A stretch of DNA of 51,367 nucleotides, from positions 1,052,297 through 1,103,663 of the forward strand of contig NZ_CM001466.1 of NCBI RefSeq assembly GCF_000231055.2. Reading direction: 5' to 3'. This document shows, one piece after another, positions 23,434 to 46,380 of this stretch. Each line of letters starts with the position of its first letter. Positions within the stretch are counted from its first letter, which is position 1. The notes beneath the pieces were generated by a model that was not told the origin of the DNA, did no database searches, and saw nothing but the letters and a program-made list of their open reading frames with translations. The position numbers were made by a program, and so were the translations under genes. This DNA comes from Saccharomonospora azurea NA-128. Its GTDB lineage: Bacteria > Actinomycetota > Actinomycetes > Mycobacteriales > Pseudonocardiaceae.

Positions 23434-23482
23434 GAACACCGCGTCCCCGGGGCTGGGCACGGGCCCCGGGGACGCGGTGTTC
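23434..23482. terminator. perfect 19-bp inverted repeat, operon terminator
   Basis: GAACACCGCGTCCCCGGGG pairs without mismatch with CCCCGGGGACGCGGTGTTC across an 11-base loop, 42 bases beyond the stop of the cupredoxin gene. It should end the secreted-oxidase operon and insulate the rtcB promoter. No T run follows. Confidence 0.75.
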
Positions 23483-23523: not shown

Positions 23524-25110
23524 TCACCTCCTCGCCTGCTCGGCGGCCCGGACGATGCGGCGCTTCTCGGCCTCGGAGATCACGTCGGACTCGGCCAGCT
23601 CGGTCGCCACGGTGGCCGCCCGCTCGGCGGAGTTGCCGTGACCGTGGTGCTCCCCGTGCGTGGCGAGCACGTCGTTGATCGTGCAGCCGTTGCCGGTGTC
23701 GACGTTGGCGACGGTGGTGTCGTGCCCGCCGATCACCACCGTCGGCCGGATGTCGGAGCCCGGGCAGGCATCAGCCTCGGCGGCGACCACGGTGAACGTG
23801 ATCGTGCCGTCCTCGCTCCGGTTTCCGGCGTGGTCGATGGCGTGGTACAGCACGGTGTGCTCGCCGGGGCGGTTCACCACGATCGGTTCCCCGTAGGGAG
23901 TGTAGGAACCGCCGTCGAGGGAGTAGCGCAGGAACCGCACACCCGAGTCCGGGTCGTGGGCGGACAACGACACCGTGGCGGAGTCCACGTAGTCCCAGTC
24001 CGCGTTCTGGGACCCCGTGACCTGCGCCGTCACCTCGGGTGGCGTGGTGTCCTCCTCGTCGGCCTCCACGACCGTGAAGCTCGCCGAGCCCACCTCGGAG
24101 GTGTTGCCCGCACGGTCGGCGGCCCGGTACTGCACCGTGTGTTCACCGGGTTCGTCCACCACCACCGGCTCCGAGTACGGCTCGAAGCCCGCGCCGTCCA
24201 GGTCGTACTCCACACTGTCCACACCAGATCCGCCGTCCTGGGCGGCCAGTTCCACCGTAGCCGAGCCGACGTAGTTGCCGTCCCCGTCCTGGTCCCCGGA
24301 CACCGTCGCGGAGACCTCCGGTGGAGTCGTGTCGTTCGGGTCGCCCTCCACCACGGTGAAGGTCACCGAACCCACCTCGGAGGTGTTGCCCGCCCCGTCC
24401 GTGGCGCGGTACTGGAGCGTGTGATCACCCGGTGCGTCGACGGTCACCGGGTCCGAGTACGGCTGGAAACCGGCGCCGTCCAGGTCGTACTCCACACTGT
24501 CCACACCGGAGTCGTCGTCCTGGGCGGCCAGCTCGACGGTGGCCGCGCCGACGTAGTTGCCGTCCCCGTCCTGGTCACCCGACACGGTGGCCGAGACGGA
24601 CGGAGGCGTCGTGTCGTCGCCACCGCCGTCGTCCTCACCGACCACCAGCACACCCTGCATCGTCGAGTGGCCCGGGATCGCGCAGTAGTACCGGTAGGTC
24701 CCGGGCGAGAGCACCACGTCGACCTCGTAGCGGCCCTTGTTCGCGTCGAACGGGCTGGCGACGATGTTGAGGTCGACGTCCGAGTTGTGCTCCGACGAGG
24801 CCGTGTCGAACGTCAGCGTGTGCGACATGCCGGTCGTGTTGCCGGTGGCCTCGCTGTTCTCGAACACGATCGTCGCCGGCCCCGGCTTCGCCGTCGCCGG
24901 GGCGGAGACGTACTCCGTCATACTGTCGCCCGCGGTCCAGGTCAGTACCTGCTCCTGGACCGCGTCCCTCGGCGCGTCTCCCCCGCCCGGCAGCGCGCCC
25001 GCCGGGACGAGCCACAGTGCGACCACGGACGCGGCGACGCCGGCGACCACCGCGCCACGCACGGTTCTCTTTCGATGAGCCCGTAGGCTCGCGAGCAACT
25101 GGCGAATCAT
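23524..25110 (-). CDS. secreted cupredoxin with three Ig-like repeats and a C-terminal GCT module
   Basis: A 528-residue exported protein. A basic N-terminus and hydrophobic segment (VVAGVAASVVALWLVPAGAL) form a signal peptide or anchor. A plastocyanin-like domain (about 45-150) has type 1 copper ligands: His in GMSHTLTF, then Cys, His and Met in YYCAIPGHSTMQG. Three repeats of about 88 residues follow, each opening TPP-[SE]-V and containing YDLDG-type and YRA-D-AGN strands (OmpL47/Ig-like). The last 80 residues form a module with GCTINDV that recurs in the upstream protein. GGAG precedes the ATG. It is last in the operon, 28 bases after the giant gene. It probably carries single electrons outside the cell. 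Confidence 0.85.
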   Translation of the reverse strand: MIRQLLASLRAHRKRTVRGAVVAGVAASVVALWLVPAGALPGGGDAPRDAVQEQVLTWTAGDSMTEYVSAPATAKPGPATIVFENSEATGNTTGMSHTLTFDTASSEHNSDVDLNIVASPFDANKGRYEVDVVLSPGTYRYYCAIPGHSTMQGVLVVGEDDGGGDDTTPPSVSATVSGDQDGDGNYVGAATVELAAQDDDSGVDSVEYDLDGAGFQPYSDPVTVDAPGDHTLQYRATDGAGNTSEVGSVTFTVVEGDPNDTTPPEVSATVSGDQDGDGNYVGSATVELAAQDGGSGVDSVEYDLDGAGFEPYSEPVVVDEPGEHTVQYRAADRAGNTSEVGSASFTVVEADEEDTTPPEVTAQVTGSQNADWDYVDSATVSLSAHDPDSGVRFLRYSLDGGSYTPYGEPIVVNRPGEHTVLYHAIDHAGNRSEDGTITFTVVAAEADACPGSDIRPTVVIGGHDTTVANVDTGNGCTINDVLATHGEHHGHGNSAERAATVATELAESDVISEAEKRRIVRAAEQARR

Positions 25111-25138
25111 CGTCGACTCCACTCCTCAGGCGGTCGGG

Positions 25139-28100
25139 TCACAGTTCCCGCACCCGGACGTTGCGAAACTCGATTACATCGTCACCACCGTGGTTCTGCA
25201 GTCCGATGTACCCGGAGACGAACTGCCGCAGATCGGTCGCCGGATCACCCTCTCGGGAGGACTGCTTGCCGGGAACGTTGTCGAACTCGTTGATCACCTT
25301 GCCGTTGCGCACGATCGTGTAGTGCTGACCCTCCACCCGGATCTCGTAGTCGTTCCACTGCTCCTTCGGCGTCACCCCGGCCCGTCCGTGGTACACGCTG
25401 TCGAAGTTGTAGACCGAACCGGTCTTCTGCGGCTCACCCGACTTGCCGTCGTAGATCTGGATCTCGTGTCCACAGTAGATCGCGACCCACGCCTGCGAGT
25501 CCTTGGCCGAACCCTTGGTCCCGCAGCTGGTCGAGGGCCGGTCCTTCGACGGCACCCGCGGGTCGGGGAAGCGGACGAAGACGCCGCTGTTGGCGCGGTG
25601 CTCGTCCGGTGCGACATCCCGGAACTGCAGCTTCAGGGAGAAGTCGCCGTACGCCTTCGTGGAGTACCAGAGCATGCCGAGCCCGCCGTCCGCGCGCAGC
25701 GATCCGTCCGGCTGGAGCTCGAAGCTGCCCGCGTCCGCCTGCTCCCAGCCCGCCAGCGACTGCGGCGTACCGTCGAAGATCGCCTCGTATCCGTTGTCGC
25801 CCTCGGCCCCGATCCCGGAGTTCCTCGCTGCCTTGACCAGCGTGTTCTGCTCCGACTTGCTGAGGACACCGTCCTTCACGAGCGGCTTCGTGACGTCCCG
25901 GACATGGGAGACGAACGCCTTGTTGTCCGGCCAGCTGCTCTCGTCGTCGATCAGGTCGTCGACCGTGCACCCGCCCGCGACGTCGTGGTTGGTGACGCCC
26001 GTGTCGTCGTCGCGATAGTGCACGGTGCGACCGGTGTCCGGCACCGCGCACTCCACCGCGACCTCCTTCTTCACGGTCACCTTCTCACCGTCGGCATAGG
26101 TCACCGTCAGGGTCGCGGTGTAGTTGCCCGGCTCGGCATAGGTGTGCCTCGGGTTCGCCTCGGCCGACGTGGTGCCGTCGCCGAAGTCCCACTGATGCGA
26201 CACACCGCCGGACCGCAGCCCGTCGAACGCGATCGTCAGCGGCTTGTTCTGCACCGCGTACGAGCGCGCCGCCGGAGCCGGCGTCGCCGGACCGCCCTTG
26301 TACGTCACGCGGATCAGCTTCTGGTTGTCGTCCAGACTGAAGAATCCGCCCGCGTAGTCGAGCAGGTACAACGCCCCGTCCGGTCCGAACTTGGCGTCCA
26401 TCCAGCTCTGCAGCTGGTCGGAACCACCGCCACCCGGGATGATCTTGCGGAGGTCCTCGGCGAACGGCGGTGGCGTGGCATCCTCCACCGTGGCCGGGTC
26501 GATCGTCACCGCGATGCGGTTGTTGGCGTTCGACTGGTCACCGATGAACCACTTCCCGTCCCAGTACGCCGGCCAGGCCACCCCGCTGTCGGTGTCCACT
26601 TCGGAGCGGTAGTAGGTCGGCCCGGACATGATGGCCTGCCCACCGCCCTTCAGGTACGGCCAGGTGTAGGTGCTGTCGTCGATCTCGTAGGTCGGCAGGC
26701 CGCTGCCGTCCCCGCGCTCCGGGAACACCGGACCGCCGCCCTGCGGCGAGTACCAGATCATGTTGTTCCGCACCGGAGGCAGGTCCTCCAGCCCCGTGTT
26801 GCGCGGCGAGGTGTTCTTCGGGTTGTCGCAGTCGTACCACCCCGTGAGCACGTCGGCGTCCTCGTTGCTCCGGTCGCGATAGGGCTGCTTGTTCCCCATG
26901 CAGTACGGCCAGCCCTGGTTGCCCGCCGACGTGATGATCGTGGCGTTCTCGTACTTCGCCGGCCCCAGCTCGGGGTCGGGTTCGCCCGCGTCGGGCCCCA
27001 CCCAGGCGGCGGTAAGCCAGTCGTGCTTGGCGTCGATCTGGATCCGCGCCGGGTTGCGCACGCCCATCACGTAGATCTCGGGCCGCGTCTTGTCACCCGG
27101 GTCGGCCGCCTCGGGGAAGAGGTTGCCCTCCGGAATGGTGTACGTGCCGTCGTCCTCGGGATGGATCCGCAGGATCTTGCCGTTCAGGTCGTTGGTGTTG
27201 CCCGACGTACGGCGGGCGTCCTGGAACGACACGCCCTTGTAGTCCTTGGTCCAGTTGTTGCCCGAGTACCCGTCCGAGCCCTGCGAGGAGTTGCTGTCAC
27301 CGGTGGCGACGTACAGGTTGCCCTCGTCGTCGAACGCCATCCCGCCACCCGCGTGGCAGCACGAGTGGATCTGCGTGTCCCACGCCAGCAGGTCCTTGCG
27401 GCTGTCGAGGTCGATGGTCGCCGACCCGTGGTCGTAGGTGAAGCGCGAGACCGTCCGCTCGCCGATGCGCTTGTCGGTGTTGATCGACTCGTACGGCATC
27501 CAGTACACGTACAGCCAGCCGTTGGTGGCGAAGTCCGGGTCGAGCTCGATGCCGATCAGCCCCTCCTCCGCCTTCACGAGCTCGTCGCCGCTGCCGCGGT
27601 TGCCGAACACGTCGAGCGTGGCGAGCAGCTTCACGCGCTCCGTCTCCGGGTCCCACTGGTGGATCGTTCCGCAGCCCAGACCGACGTTCTCGTCCTCCCA
27701 GTCGGGGATCGGCCCGGTCGCACACGCCGCCTTGCCGATGTAGAAGACCGTGCCGTCGTCGGCGATCGTGAGTCCGTGGGGCTCACCGATCTGGTCGAGC
27801 CGCCCGGGCAGGTTCTCACCGGTCAGCCGCTCGATCTCGTAATTCTCGGCGATCGTGGCCTGGCAGTCGCCGCGCACGAGCCCGGTCGTCCACTCCAGAG
27901 CCCCCAGGAGGTGGCCGCGGAAGTTCTTCTCGCCGTAGCTGTCCGCCGTCCCGCCCATCGCGGTGTAGAACGACCGGCCACCGCCGTAGTCGTGGCACCA
28001 CGAGATCGGGTGGAACGGCCCGTTCGCGGCGGGACCCGGGTCGTAGGTGTGCTCCTGGACCTGCGCGACCGTGTGGACCTCACCGACCGGGCTCGACTCC

Positions 28101-29149
28101 CAGTTCAGCCACTTGTCGGTGCGCTTCCACGTCAGCGGCAGACCCTTGTTCGCCGGGTGCTGCCGGTCGGTGACGCTGACCACGGCCTCCTGGGCGTCCG
28201 GATCCACCGGCTCGGTCTCGTCGCCGGTGTAGAGCTCGAACTCGGCGAGCTGGGTGGCGTCCGCCCCGCGGTTCGCCGTGATGTTCAGCCGGTAGTGGGA
28301 GTAGCTGGTCTCGTTGTCGAATCGGTACTGTTTGGGCTGGAACCGGTTGGGGAAGTCCTCATCGGACTGGGAGTCCAGGTCGGTCCAGTTCTCCCCGTCG
28401 TTCGAACCCTGCAGCGTCCAGTCCTTCGGGTCCCGATCGGGGAAGTCGTTGGCCGACACCACGCCGTAGTGGGAGACGGCCGTGGGTTCGGCGAGCTCGA
28501 CGCTCAACCACGCGGAGCTGTCGAACGCCAGCCACTTGGTGTCGTCCTTGCCGTCGACCGCGTGCGCCGCGGACTCGTTCGGTGCGTTCTCATTGCTGGC
28601 GCTGGCACTCGCGACCTCCGCGGGCGTCGGCCGGGCACCCGCCGGCCTCGCGCCGACGAGACCGGAGAACCACGCCGAGCGCTCCTGCGCCCGCGCCGCA
28701 TCACGGATGCCGAGGAACCCGCCCCCGTTGTCGAGGTAGCTCCGCAACGCCGCTTCCTGCGACTGGTCGAGCTCGGACCCGTGCGCCGACAGGAACACGA
28801 CACCCCGGTACTTGCTCAGGTTCTCGCTCGTGAACGCGGCCGGGTCGGTGGTCACGTCGACGTCGAGGCCGCTCGTGGCACCCAGCTCGCCGATCGCGTC
28901 CGCCGCACGCTCGACCGGGTCGTCCTGCTCGTCCGGGGCACCGTGGAACACCAGCACCGACGCCGCCGGCGCGGCGGCGCGCTCCCGCGGCTTGCCCTTG
29001 CCGTTGCCGGGCTCCGGCGCGCCGAAGCTCGGTGTCGCCGCCAGCCCGAAGACCAGCGTCAAACCGGTCGCGACCACCATGGTGCGCCGGAACAGCGTCG
29101 GTCTCGCACGCCCGGCGCGGGGTAGAGCTGACAATCTTCTTCGACCCAT
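25139..29149 (-). CDS. giant secreted ThuA / discoidin / PQQ-dehydrogenase-like / PKD / DUF1080 protein
   Basis: A 1,336-residue exported protein; the signal segment is about residues 20-43. A ThuA fold (about 63-428) is split by an inserted F5/8C discoidin domain (about 175-308). A glucose/sorbosone-dehydrogenase-type propeller follows (about 445-965), with EEGLIGIELDPDF, HAGGGMAFDDEGNLYVATGD, GVRNPARIQID and GNQGWPYC. Next come a PKD domain (QWDFGDGTTSAEANPRHTY), a Cys-containing module with GGCTVDDL, and a DUF1080 domain (about 1140-1336), the 3-keto-glycoside hydrolase family. This suggests binding, oxidation and cleavage of an extracellular carbohydrate. GAGGAG lies five bases before the ATG. 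The substrate is unknown. Confidence 0.9.
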   Translation of the reverse strand: MGRRRLSALPRAGRARPTLFRRTMVVATGLTLVFGLAATPSFGAPEPGNGKGKPRERAAAPAASVLVFHGAPDEQDDPVERAADAIGELGATSGLDVDVTTDPAAFTSENLSKYRGVVFLSAHGSELDQSQEAALRSYLDNGGGFLGIRDAARAQERSAWFSGLVGARPAGARPTPAEVASASASNENAPNESAAHAVDGKDDTKWLAFDSSAWLSVELAEPTAVSHYGVVSANDFPDRDPKDWTLQGSNDGENWTDLDSQSDEDFPNRFQPKQYRFDNETSYSHYRLNITANRGADATQLAEFELYTGDETEPVDPDAQEAVVSVTDRQHPANKGLPLTWKRTDKWLNWESSPVGEVHTVAQVQEHTYDPGPAANGPFHPISWCHDYGGGRSFYTAMGGTADSYGEKNFRGHLLGALEWTTGLVRGDCQATIAENYEIERLTGENLPGRLDQIGEPHGLTIADDGTVFYIGKAACATGPIPDWEDENVGLGCGTIHQWDPETERVKLLATLDVFGNRGSGDELVKAEEGLIGIELDPDFATNGWLYVYWMPYESINTDKRIGERTVSRFTYDHGSATIDLDSRKDLLAWDTQIHSCCHAGGGMAFDDEGNLYVATGDSNSSQGSDGYSGNNWTKDYKGVSFQDARRTSGNTNDLNGKILRIHPEDDGTYTIPEGNLFPEAADPGDKTRPEIYVMGVRNPARIQIDAKHDWLTAAWVGPDAGEPDPELGPAKYENATIITSAGNQGWPYCMGNKQPYRDRSNEDADVLTGWYDCDNPKNTSPRNTGLEDLPPVRNNMIWYSPQGGGPVFPERGDGSGLPTYEIDDSTYTWPYLKGGGQAIMSGPTYYRSEVDTDSGVAWPAYWDGKWFIGDQSNANNRIAVTIDPATVEDATPPPFAEDLRKIIPGGGGSDQLQSWMDAKFGPDGALYLLDYAGGFFSLDDNQKLIRVTYKGGPATPAPAARSYAVQNKPLTIAFDGLRSGGVSHQWDFGDGTTSAEANPRHTYAEPGNYTATLTVTYADGEKVTVKKEVAVECAVPDTGRTVHYRDDDTGVTNHDVAGGCTVDDLIDDESSWPDNKAFVSHVRDVTKPLVKDGVLSKSEQNTLVKAARNSGIGAEGDNGYEAIFDGTPQSLAGWEQADAGSFELQPDGSLRADGGLGMLWYSTKAYGDFSLKLQFRDVAPDEHRANSGVFVRFPDPRVPSKDRPSTSCGTKGSAKDSQAWVAIYCGHEIQIYDGKSGEPQKTGSVYNFDSVYHGRAGVTPKEQWNDYEIRVEGQHYTIVRNGKVINEFDNVPGKQSSREGDPATDLRQFVSGYIGLQNHGGDDVIEFRNVRVREL

Positions 29150-29211
29150 CTCTACTCCTCACTGAAAGGGTGTTACAGGCCAGTTCGACAGGTCAGCGAC
29201 CGGGTGGTGTC

Positions 29212-30228
29212 CTAGTGGCCACCCTGATGTCCGAGGTAGCGGTCGATCGCCTCCTGGGCGCCGTCGGGCATGCTGCCGTCGGCGTTGCGGACGAGGAAGA
29301 TGCCCGACATTCCGGTCTCGGAATGGCTTTGGACGTGGCAGTGGAACATCCACGCACCGGGCCCGACCCCGTCTCCTGCGATCACCTGGAAACCGAAGGA
29401 GTCCCCGGGGTTCAGGTCGCGGTTGTCGACGACCTTGCTCGGGTCGTCGGGGCCCTGGAGGTAGCCGGTGCGGTTGTCGGCCCAGCGGTGCGCGTGGAGG
29501 TGGAAGGTGTGGAAGTTGTTGCCGTGCCCGATGGCGATGAACTCCACGCGCTCGCCGAGGTTGGCTTCGAGGATGGGCACGTCCGGCGCCATCTTGTTGT
29601 TGATCGTCATGTCGTTGAAGACGACGGTGAATTGCCGGTCGGGCACCACGTCGCCCTCACGCCGGACGACGAGCGCGCCGTACAGGCCCTTCGCGATGCC
29701 CTCGGTGCCGTGATCACTGCCGAGCGCGTGGTCGTGGTAGTGCCAGTAGCCCGCACTGCCCGGGATCCAGAAGCCGCCCGGGCCCTCCGACTGGAAGCTC
29801 GTGCTCCACACGTAGGTGCGGGTCTCGCCGGGTTCGTTGAAGGAGTCGTTCAACGGGCTGCCGTCGGACGCGACGTCGTAGTTGACGCCGTGCGGATGGA
29901 TCGACAGGCGCCGGTCGGTGTTGTTCACCAGCTCGATCTCGAGGGTGTCACCCTCCCAGATCTCGAAGACGGGTCCGGGCACGGTGGCCTTGCCCGGTTC
30001 GAGCCCGTAGCCGTAGAGGCCGCCGGGCAGCTCCTCCGCGTAGACGGTGACGCGGTGCGTTTCACCCGTGCGGCCCGGGCGCCCCTTGCCGCGCCCCTGC
30101 GCGGCGGCGGAGCCGGCACCGAGGGTGGACACGGCTACGGGCGCCACCACCCCGGCCGCGGCGCCGACCAGCATCGAACGACGAGACACCTTCTGGGACT
30201 GAGGTAGCCGAGCCTGTTCACCGGTCAT
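29212..30228 (-). CDS. two-domain (small) laccase, multicopper oxidase
   Basis: A 338-residue multicopper oxidase of the actinobacterial small-laccase type, normally a trimer. The twin-arginine signal (KVSRRSMLVGAAAG) indicates export as a folded copper protein. Copper ligands are complete: HPHGVNY (His111, His113), WHYHDHA, HTFHLHAHRW and WMFHCHVQSHSETGM, giving type 1 His240, Cys297, His302, Met307 plus the trinuclear cluster. It oxidises phenolic or other one-electron donors with O2. It is the first gene of the three-gene secreted operon, 62 bases before the ThuA-type gene, and its upstream region carries operator-like repeats. Confidence 0.95.
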   Translation of the reverse strand: MTGEQARLPQSQKVSRRSMLVGAAAGVVAPVAVSTLGAGSAAAQGRGKGRPGRTGETHRVTVYAEELPGGLYGYGLEPGKATVPGPVFEIWEGDTLEIELVNNTDRRLSIHPHGVNYDVASDGSPLNDSFNEPGETRTYVWSTSFQSEGPGGFWIPGSAGYWHYHDHALGSDHGTEGIAKGLYGALVVRREGDVVPDRQFTVVFNDMTINNKMAPDVPILEANLGERVEFIAIGHGNNFHTFHLHAHRWADNRTGYLQGPDDPSKVVDNRDLNPGDSFGFQVIAGDGVGPGAWMFHCHVQSHSETGMSGIFLVRNADGSMPDGAQEAIDRYLGHQGGH

Positions 30229-30454: not shown

Positions 30455-30713
30455 CACGTGTCCGCACCTCTCGCACACGTGTCTGTACCCCTCGCACCCG
30501 TGTCCGCACCCCCCGTACGCGTGTTCTCACCCCACGCCCGTGTCCGCACCCCACGAACCCGTGTCCGCACCTCACGCACCCGTGTCCGCAGTCCACGTGC
30601 GCGTGTCCGCGGCGTGCGACGCGAACACTCGCACGCAGGCCGCGGACACGATGCCAAGGCCCACCCAAGGCGTACGGGAAGTGCGGACACGCGTGCACAG
30701 ACCGCGGACACGG
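30455..30713. repeat. 21-bp-period repeat element, copy A
   Basis: Eight head-to-tail units with the consensus CCCGTGTCCGCACCCCACGCA start at 30455; seven are 21 bases, one is 19. Three inverted cores (GCGGACACG) follow near 30643, 30683 and 30704. The final segment from 30671, CGTACGGGAAGTGCGGACAC then GCGTGCACAGACCGCGGACA, is almost the same as in copy B at 46338. Direct and inverted units can pair into several alternative long stems. It begins 226 bases ahead of the laccase start and its inverted end lies 25 bases beyond the stop of the DUF1059 gene. Confidence 0.9.
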
Positions 30714-46236: not shown

Positions 46237-46380
46237 CCGTGTCCGCACTCAGCGAACGCGTGTCCGCACTTCCCGCACGCGTGTCCGCGCTTCCCGCACC
46301 AGTGTCCGCACTTCCCGCACCCGGGCCGGCGAGCGGCCGTACGGGAACTGCGGACACGCGTGCCCAGGGCGCGGACACGG
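46237..46380. repeat. 21-bp-period repeat element, copy B
   Basis: Four head-to-tail units (20, 21, 21 and 21 bases; typical unit CGCGTGTCCGCACTTCCCGC) are followed by a short GC spacer and the inverted segment GTACGGGAACTGCGGACAC (46339), then GCGCGGACACGG. The last direct unit (46302-46320) pairs with the inverted segment at 17 of 19 positions, giving a strong hairpin. The end lies nine bases beyond the stop of the quinone oxidoreductase gene, the same arrangement as copy A. It could act as that gene's terminator. Confidence 0.9.

Follow-up and report, generated by a model that had tools for sequence, protein, structure and literature searches.

In the extracts of the literature available, small laccases such as SLAC appear as stand-alone phenol oxidases that oxidise phenolics (PMC3918160) and delignify biomass (PMC5294454), and lignin solubilisation is lost or reduced in a silA laccase mutant (PMC5675413); the same extracts make no mention of partner genes. 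By contrast, the small laccase studied here belongs to a conserved multi-protein set. It is encoded in a window of 51,367 nucleotides (the whole stretch of DNA that was analysed: contig NZ_CM001466.1, positions 1,052,297 to 1,103,663) within the 4.76-Mb, single-contig genome of Saccharomonospora azurea NA-128. On the minus strand, and in the direction of transcription, its gene is followed by that of a giant secreted protein, which carries a GSDH-type beta-propeller and a 3-keto-disaccharide hydrolase domain (formerly, and hereafter, DUF1080), and then by that of a secreted cupredoxin protein (Table 1). The three-gene set was not described in the titles and abstract beginnings that made up the literature searched, most subscription papers being outside it, and within that literature the unit is apparently undescribed.

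The second group of related systems is formed by the 3-keto-glycoside pathways, that is, LacABC with a DUF1080 protein in Caulobacter and GlycDH, OGE, HYD and Gfo in Agrobacterium. According to the part of the source available, the DUF1080 protein BT2157 hydrolyses 3-ketotrehalose, and hydrolysis of 3'-ketolactose is proposed for CCNA_01705, encoded near LacABC (PMC9007349). Likewise, the available extract on Agrobacterium describes enzymes that act on 3-keto-glycosides: a C3-dehydrogenase, a TIM-barrel beta-eliminase able to cleave a phenolic one and, with preliminary support, a Gfo reductase (PMC10628242). The longest operons of the relatives of our locus share with these pathways DUF1080, TIM barrels, Gfo/Idh/MocA proteins and sugar transporters. 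However, the position of the dehydrogenase is taken by a propeller and copper proteins, and outside the cell of a Gram-positive bacterium. Neither LacABC nor GlycDH was seen among the annotated genes of these operons, for which no homology search aimed at them was made.

Third, the propeller shares six blades and the catalytic His, Arg and Asn with sGDH, YliI, 3das and the CAZy family AA12. Unlike sGDH and the aldose dehydrogenases, it lacks in the alignment the Arg-x-Arg pair and Lys377, carries Cys-Cys before the catalytic His and is fused to ThuA, PKD and DUF1080 domains. The cupredoxin domain has the type 1 copper ligands and the single-electron carrier fold of auracyanin and plastocyanin but, unlike them, is followed by Ig-like repeats and a module shared with the giant, and by DUF1080 in Streptomyces-type genomes. 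We give an even chance to the whole reading in which the three genes make up one extracellular oxidative sugar-processing unit of actinobacteria working through the copper route set out below.

Linkage of the laccase, giant and cupredoxin genes

At cut-offs that we chose for the expectation value (E; 1e-60 for the laccase and 1e-130 for the giant), each of the two proteins was found in 64 of 200 genomes of the family, and these were the identical 64 genomes, from 16 of 46 genera. Among 396 genomes of the phylum, the laccase was found in 16, the giant in 9 and both in 8, namely the own genome and seven genomes of one genus. Within the 8-kb flanks of 80 named laccase loci, a propeller was present in 76 and a cupredoxin in 75; as these loci are the best 80 of at least 570, the sample leans to close relatives. 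They bear 29 genus names as deposited (Rhodococcus looks misnamed), with Saccharomonospora loci the nearest, and include Amycolatopsis, Prauserella, Micromonospora, Actinoplanes, Promicromonospora, Jiangella and Georgenia. All three genes were present in 142 of 155 fetched loci, a partly redundant set with duplicates such as L067/L181, L069/L168, L071/L172 and L077/L167. Three arrangements were found: laccase-giant-cupredoxin (126 loci), giant-cupredoxin-laccase (9) and a set with a divergent laccase (7), and the genes were on a single strand in 135 of the 155. Gene maps of the relatives came from a simple codon-position caller that returned some wrong-strand open reading frames (e.g. cluster 25, Amycolatopsis), so that starts and some gaps in relatives are approximate.

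Some of these data weigh against the sugar-processing reading. First, eight laccase genomes of the phylum survey, in families f23 and f28 and outside the class, had no giant at the cut-off. Second, two Oerskovia loci (L209, L210) carry the laccase alone while a third (L204) has the set, the laccase of S. piscinae (L071/L172 and L070) lies 440 kb from the other two genes, and the giant of S. saliphila (L068 and L069/L168) is on another contig. Third, in a mirror-tree comparison over 97 loci, the correlations were 0.85 for laccase and propeller, 0.52 for laccase and cupredoxin and 0.42 for propeller and cupredoxin (none of 500 permutations reached any of them); these values are consistent with co-inheritance only, as the statistic ignores the species phylogeny, and the two cupredoxin pairs are lower. 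The other exceptions among the 13 loci were S. halophila (L067/L181; no cupredoxin match, genome 83% complete), a contig end (L191) and two second laccases (L136, L137). Some distant giants, at about 38-47% identity, also have no accompanying laccase at the cut-offs (for example G038, G027 and, in the phylum survey, G312).

The survey of actinobacterial genomes for the three genes as neighbours nevertheless came out strongly positive (laccase and giant in the same 64 family genomes, all three genes at 142 of 155 loci), which bears out the joint unit proposed by an earlier, sequence-only reading of the window. Chance or passenger linkage is ruled out by the shared 64 of 200 genomes together with the 142 of 155 loci, and we conclude that the three genes, whose linkage is kept in several families, are almost certainly one conserved functional unit.

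Multicopper oxidases can serve copper resistance. The laccase and the cupredoxin might accordingly serve copper tolerance with the giant as an unrelated passenger, for which a CopA-type NCBIfam match, far below its cut-off, could be cited. Yet the strict laccase-giant co-occurrence in 64 genomes and the movement of DUF1080 described below largely refute the passenger claim, and the neighbour clusters that were annotated, a minority, contained no copper transporter or chaperone. We regard this explanation as highly improbable, and copper resistance as the sole role was rejected on those same annotated clusters, which held no copper transport genes.

Two observations concern further laccase genes. 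The second laccases at L136 and L137 are more distant (53-58% identity) and form tandem pairs, one copy with an internal stop, in two large genomes that each have the three-gene set elsewhere. At a locus of family f28 without giant (L163:5094-8763), there is a 4-base overlap between the laccase gene and one with a weak cupredoxin match, and the gene that follows is also cupredoxin-like by eye, a laccase-cupredoxin pairing without the sugar protein.

Domain movement and carbohydrate context

The DUF1080 domain of the window's giant was matched with 119 bits against a cut-off of 26.8, and DUF1080 lies on the giant in 137 called proteins (duplicates included). In all seven Streptomyces-type loci, by contrast, the giant stops after the propeller and DUF1080 is found on the cupredoxin protein, and at three loci, in genomes G061 and G094, a gene of its own next to the cupredoxin gene encodes it. 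Moreover, a paralogue in the own genome (L011:7853-12094) joins in one chain a GSDH domain, two DUF1080 domains, a cupredoxin-like domain and a module-like end; this cupredoxin-like domain scores 20.2 bits against a cut-off of 21.2, with His, Cys, His and Met visible at altered spacing. Since DUF1080 is rearranged while the content stays constant, this movement is strong evidence for joint function.

These fusions also bear on a different explanation of the linkage, in which the set attacks lignin-carbohydrate complexes or phenolic glycosides: the laccase would oxidise phenolics or lignin, the giant and DUF1080 would handle the attached sugars, and the cupredoxin would hand over copper or draw electrons from elsewhere, so that the genes would share a substrate and not an electron chain. 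The phenolic oxidation (PMC3918160), the delignification (PMC5294454), the lignin deficit of the SilA mutant (PMC5675413) and the TIM-barrel cleavage of a 3-keto phenolic glycoside (PMC10628242), all known from extracts, agree with it, and in particular the silA phenotype fits a phenolic role and counts against the sugar-processing reading. The lignin explanation also accords with the laccase found alone at four loci that are not second copies (L071, L172, L209 and L210, the first two being one place). On the other hand, a shared substrate would leave unexplained a regular type 1 copper protein that is fused to DUF1080 in seven of seven Streptomyces-type loci and to a propeller plus DUF1080 in the paralogue. 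We consider this explanation unlikely.

Sugar-type genes accompany the set in relatives. Next to it, 16 of 68 family loci encode a xylose-isomerase-like TIM barrel that begins with a twin-arginine motif (Pfam run on three). One run, in Amycolatopsis (L224), reads ROK regulator, ABC ATPase, permease, binding protein, Gfo/Idh/MocA, TIM barrel, laccase, giant and cupredoxin on the same strand with overlaps or gaps below 60 bases, save for about 1 kb after the Gfo/Idh/MocA gene, where a gene was called on the other strand. The Pfam annotation of such clusters covers a single member from each of the ROK, permease, binding-protein, Gfo and TIM groups, and the ATPase was recognised by eye; the importer in the operons of some relatives is of the ribose type. 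In five of the seven Streptomyces-type loci a LacI-type regulator (Pfam run on one) lies within 5 kb of the laccase, adjacent in three. Among the annotated operon genes, the propeller with its copper partners is the sole candidate for extracellular oxidation.

Two facts weigh against the sugar-processing reading. First, the window's own locus lacks recognised sugar-transport neighbours, and none was seen at most loci. Second, another DUF1080 protein is an endo-xanthanase/lichenase according to the extract available (PMC9007349), and because of this one characterised protein we lowered our estimate for keto-sugar chemistry a little, to somewhat better than even. Taking linkage, domain movement and sugar-type neighbours together, we therefore read the set as one unit tied to carbohydrate, and probably to 3-keto-sugar, chemistry; the carbohydrate role as such is likely. 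The hydrolysis of 3-keto-glycosides is the predicted activity of DUF1080 in the giant, which presumably binds carbohydrate through its discoidin and ThuA parts (paralogues have carbohydrate-binding modules). All domains that had been listed for the giant, namely propeller, ThuA, discoidin, PKD and DUF1080, were recovered by Pfam.

The unit might instead build or remodel the cell's own surface glycans, or export a cyclitol-type product. Amycolatopsis xylanica has a partial group of ebo-like genes upstream of its set, the loci L179 and L206 have inositol-phosphate synthase genes next to theirs, and a second ThuA-GSDH giant of the own genome adjoins both an inositol-phosphate synthase gene and ebo-like genes. 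Against it, the importer, the ROK and LacI regulators and the Gfo/Idh/MocA genes point to uptake, and the ebo-like neighbourhood was seen at one locus of the set, the other loci not having been searched for ebo. We hold such a role to be quite improbable, and carbohydrate breakdown is preferred.

The own genome holds three further GSDH giants, two of them with ThuA, whose neighbours include an AP_endonuc_2 gene (L009), a Gfo/Idh/MocA gene (L010) and, at L011, genes for both a ROK regulator and a sugar-binding protein. Relative to the ebo cluster as described in the available part of PMC5133447, partial ebo-like genes lie near the set in one genome and beside one giant paralogue, outside the conserved set. 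In A. xylanica (L187:1074-6086) they encode a 567-residue TIM barrel (possibly an EboA hybrid), a TatD-like EboB, an EboE-like TIM barrel and a phosphodiesterase, and in the own genome EboB/EboE-like genes stand beside the paralogue (L010:15549-17516). The inositol-phosphate synthase genes are at L206:15266-16699 and L179:15299-16561 beside the set, and at L010:13675-14823 beside the paralogue.

The propeller and its possible cofactor

Conservation was counted after identical rows had been dropped (147 propellers to 126, 144 cupredoxins to 122 and 138 laccases to 114, in each case beside the query), and propellers below 50% identity were left out. The sequence-only reading had proposed a sugar dehydrogenase dependent on pyrroloquinoline quinone (PQQ), with bound PQQ as the primary acceptor. 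Its fold stands: the six-bladed propeller matches GSDH in Pfam (E 2.8e-19), and the top Foldseek match of its model (mean predicted local confidence, pLDDT, 75.9) is Acinetobacter sGDH (E 4e-19), the best fold matches being sGDH entries, several with PQQ. The same propeller model is, however, matched by Hedgehog-interacting protein, which is not known to be a PQQ enzyme. The catalytic residues are also kept, since His599, Arg698 and Asn699, which align with His144, Arg228 and Asn229 of sGDH, are invariant in the 126 rows, as is a Gly-Pro-Asp motif. A Cys-Cys pair directly precedes the catalytic-type His in 126 of 126 rows. In eight-bladed methanol dehydrogenases, vicinal cysteines adjoin PQQ.

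The anchors of the PQQ carboxylates, in contrast, appear lost in the alignment. Where five aligned aldose dehydrogenase chains (2ism, 3a9g, 7cdy, 2g8s and 3das) and the canonical aldose dehydrogenase of the own genome (L138) retain Arg-x-Arg, the propeller has Ser-x-Met (Ser in 97 and Met in 126 of 126 rows), and no basic residue was seen in the alignment at the inferred place of Lys377. We take the Arg-x-Arg pair to be Arg406 and Arg408 of sGDH. The available extract of PMC6881789 concurs, and these positions were mapped through it and the aldose dehydrogenases, this region of sGDH itself being unaligned. According to the same extract, PQQ binding in AA12 enzymes does not involve the contacts of Lys377 and Arg408 (PMC6881789), and PQQ is therefore still a candidate for the propeller.

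PqqC was found above its cut-off in 43 of the 64 family genomes with the set versus 90 of the 136 without it (Fisher p 1.0), so that host PQQ synthesis was rejected as a marker of PQQ use. The PqqC search found none in the window's own genome and none in 14 control genomes either. This null result is weak evidence, because the own genome keeps L138 without PqqC and the controls include no positive genome; as L138 is present though PqqC is missing, uptake of outside PQQ is possible. Together, the lost Arg pair and Lys377 and the unassociated PqqC make the PQQ form of the sugar-oxidation reading doubtful, as far as alignments can tell, and we rate PQQ as the cofactor rather unlikely. The loss of PQQ-binding residues that the earlier reading had named as decisive is thus partial: the equivalents of His144, Arg228 and Asn229 remain and the Arg pair does not.

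Proposed copper route and features of the locus

The window laccase matches Cu-oxidase_2 and Cu-oxidase_3 and, over most of its length, solved two-domain laccases (3t9w, E 7e-130; the SLAC structure 3cg8, E 1.5e-115), with which it shares the two-domain multicopper oxidase architecture and ligand columns; 50 distinct laccase sequences were counted among the matched PDB chains. Its type 1 (T1) and trinuclear copper ligands are complete, and each column is kept in 112 to 114 of 114 other rows. One relative's laccase (L127) equals 3t9w nearly letter for letter. Another, from a Streptomyces-type locus (L151, the single one run of seven), matches 3cg8 over its full length with 704 bits and, by eye, about 90% identity. 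The structure 3cg8 is that of the S. coelicolor SLAC, SCO6712, and we take the genus of L151 (g67) to be Streptomyces on the strength of this match. Export of the laccase by the twin-arginine translocation (Tat) pathway, claimed earlier, agrees with the twin-arginine motif RRSM seen by eye, but the Tat model scored 12.4 bits, under the cut-off of 22.7.

The third protein was correctly predicted to be a secreted type 1 copper protein: its Copper-bind match (E 4e-4) lies exactly at the cut-off, and the complete His-Cys-His-Met ligand set is kept in 122 of 122 rows. The top PDB match of the domain, auracyanin A, is weak (E 0.0034), and the repeats that follow are of the OmpL47 type (NCBIfam). Absent from the earlier account was a module of about 80 residues common to the giant (residues 1034-1114) and the cupredoxin protein (residues 452-532; BLASTP E 1e-5). 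In an alignment of 237 distinct rows (fetched cluster proteins and the window's two), both of its cysteines had a conservation of 1.00 after rounding, and the model of the module reached a pLDDT of 92.5. An assignment to a known domain was rejected, as neither copy had a Pfam match and the fold had no PDB match at E 0.001; for this reason, it is a guess that the module holds the giant and the cupredoxin protein together. Downstream of the cupredoxin gene, some loci encode a secreted-looking protein of about 323-337 residues without Pfam match (L114:10263-11234; L215:14469-15482), whose cluster is represented at 13 of the 68 family loci and at 30 of another 87.

The preferred sugar-processing reading could then work as follows. 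The propeller would oxidise a hydroxyl group of a sugar, with a 3-keto sugar as the probable product, and would do so with an unusually bound PQQ or with another group at the Cys-Cys-His motif. The keto-glycoside would be cut by DUF1080, assisted at some loci by the Tat-type TIM barrel. Electrons would travel over the blue copper domain to the T1 copper of the small laccase, and this enzyme would reduce O2 to water. A blue copper protein encoded beside sugar domains, and in one paralogue fused to them, plausibly fits such a carrier role; judged from sequences, we place the route through the cupredoxin to the laccase just short of even. The well-studied small laccase may thus normally be fed by extracellular sugar oxidation. 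A bolder version, a new extracellular copper chain in which a propeller without the usual PQQ anchors oxidises glycosides at C3, perhaps with a new redox site at Cys-Cys-His, the later steps being those just given, and which would be the natural job of SLAC-type enzymes, seems to us slightly less likely than the lignin explanation above.

The linkage names partners of a small laccase, so that the role of the enzyme becomes testable by supplying the neighbouring proteins and, in place of a dye, a glycoside. If the route is right, actinobacteria would have an extracellular form of oxidative keto-sugar breakdown that is driven by copper and O2, and the propeller would have to be regarded as a sugar oxidase having an uncharacterised cofactor site.

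Gene coordinates and Pfam confirmed the three genes as head to tail, with 62 bases between laccase and giant and 28 bases between giant and cupredoxin (16 if the GTG at 25122 is the start). The same strand, the close spacing and the conserved neighbours all agree with an operon. A consensus scan found no sigma-70-type promoter, other promoter types being outside that scan. The strong terminator that had been claimed is present as a stable hairpin (86-nucleotide stretch, folding energy -52.6 kcal/mol, z -5.7), but lacks a T run and is missing from the calls of the terminator scan.

Table 1. Features of the three-gene set in the window (window positions).
Feature	Position	Strand	Basis
Two-domain small laccase (SLAC family), 338 residues, Tat-type signal RRSM	29212-30228	-	Pfam, PDB matches, motif by eye
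Giant secreted protein, 1336 residues: ThuA, discoidin, six-bladed GSDH propeller, PKD, shared module, 3-keto-disaccharide hydrolase	25139-29149	-	Pfam, PDB
ThuA domain, two stretches (approximate)	28649-28963 and 27887-28201	-	Pfam
Discoidin (F5/8 type C) domain, inserted in ThuA	28238-28606	-	Pfam; PDB 7nsn
GSDH-type beta-propeller	26282-27877	-	Pfam, alignment, model and Foldseek
Cys-Cys-His motif (Cys597-Cys598-His599); His aligns with catalytic His144 of sGDH	27353-27361	-	126 of 126 rows
Met917, where PQQ aldose dehydrogenases carry the second Arg of Arg-x-Arg	26399-26401	-	Met in 126 of 126 rows
PKD domain (PKD_4)	26066-26278	-	Pfam
Shared C-terminal module, giant copy	25808-26050	-	BLASTP, alignment, model
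3-keto-disaccharide hydrolase domain (PF06439, 3keto-disac_hyd, former DUF1080)	25148-25792	-	Pfam, E 2.9e-34
Cupredoxin protein, 532 residues: cupredoxin, three OmpL47-type repeats, shared module	23524-25122 (or from ATG 25110)	-	Pfam, NCBIfam
Type 1 copper (plastocyanin-like) domain; ligands His101, Cys147, His152, Met155	24640-24945	-	Copper-bind, auracyanin A
Shared C-terminal module, cupredoxin-protein copy	23527-23769	-	BLASTP, alignment
Perfect 20-bp hairpin 3' of the last gene, probable terminator without T run	23434-23482	-	Fold

Upstream of the laccase gene, a tandem array with a unit of about 21 bases, CGTGTCCGCACCCCACGCACC, runs for 7.4 copies (30457-30610). The same core recurs at 46238-46358, and the window contains 9 exact cores where 0.6 are expected.

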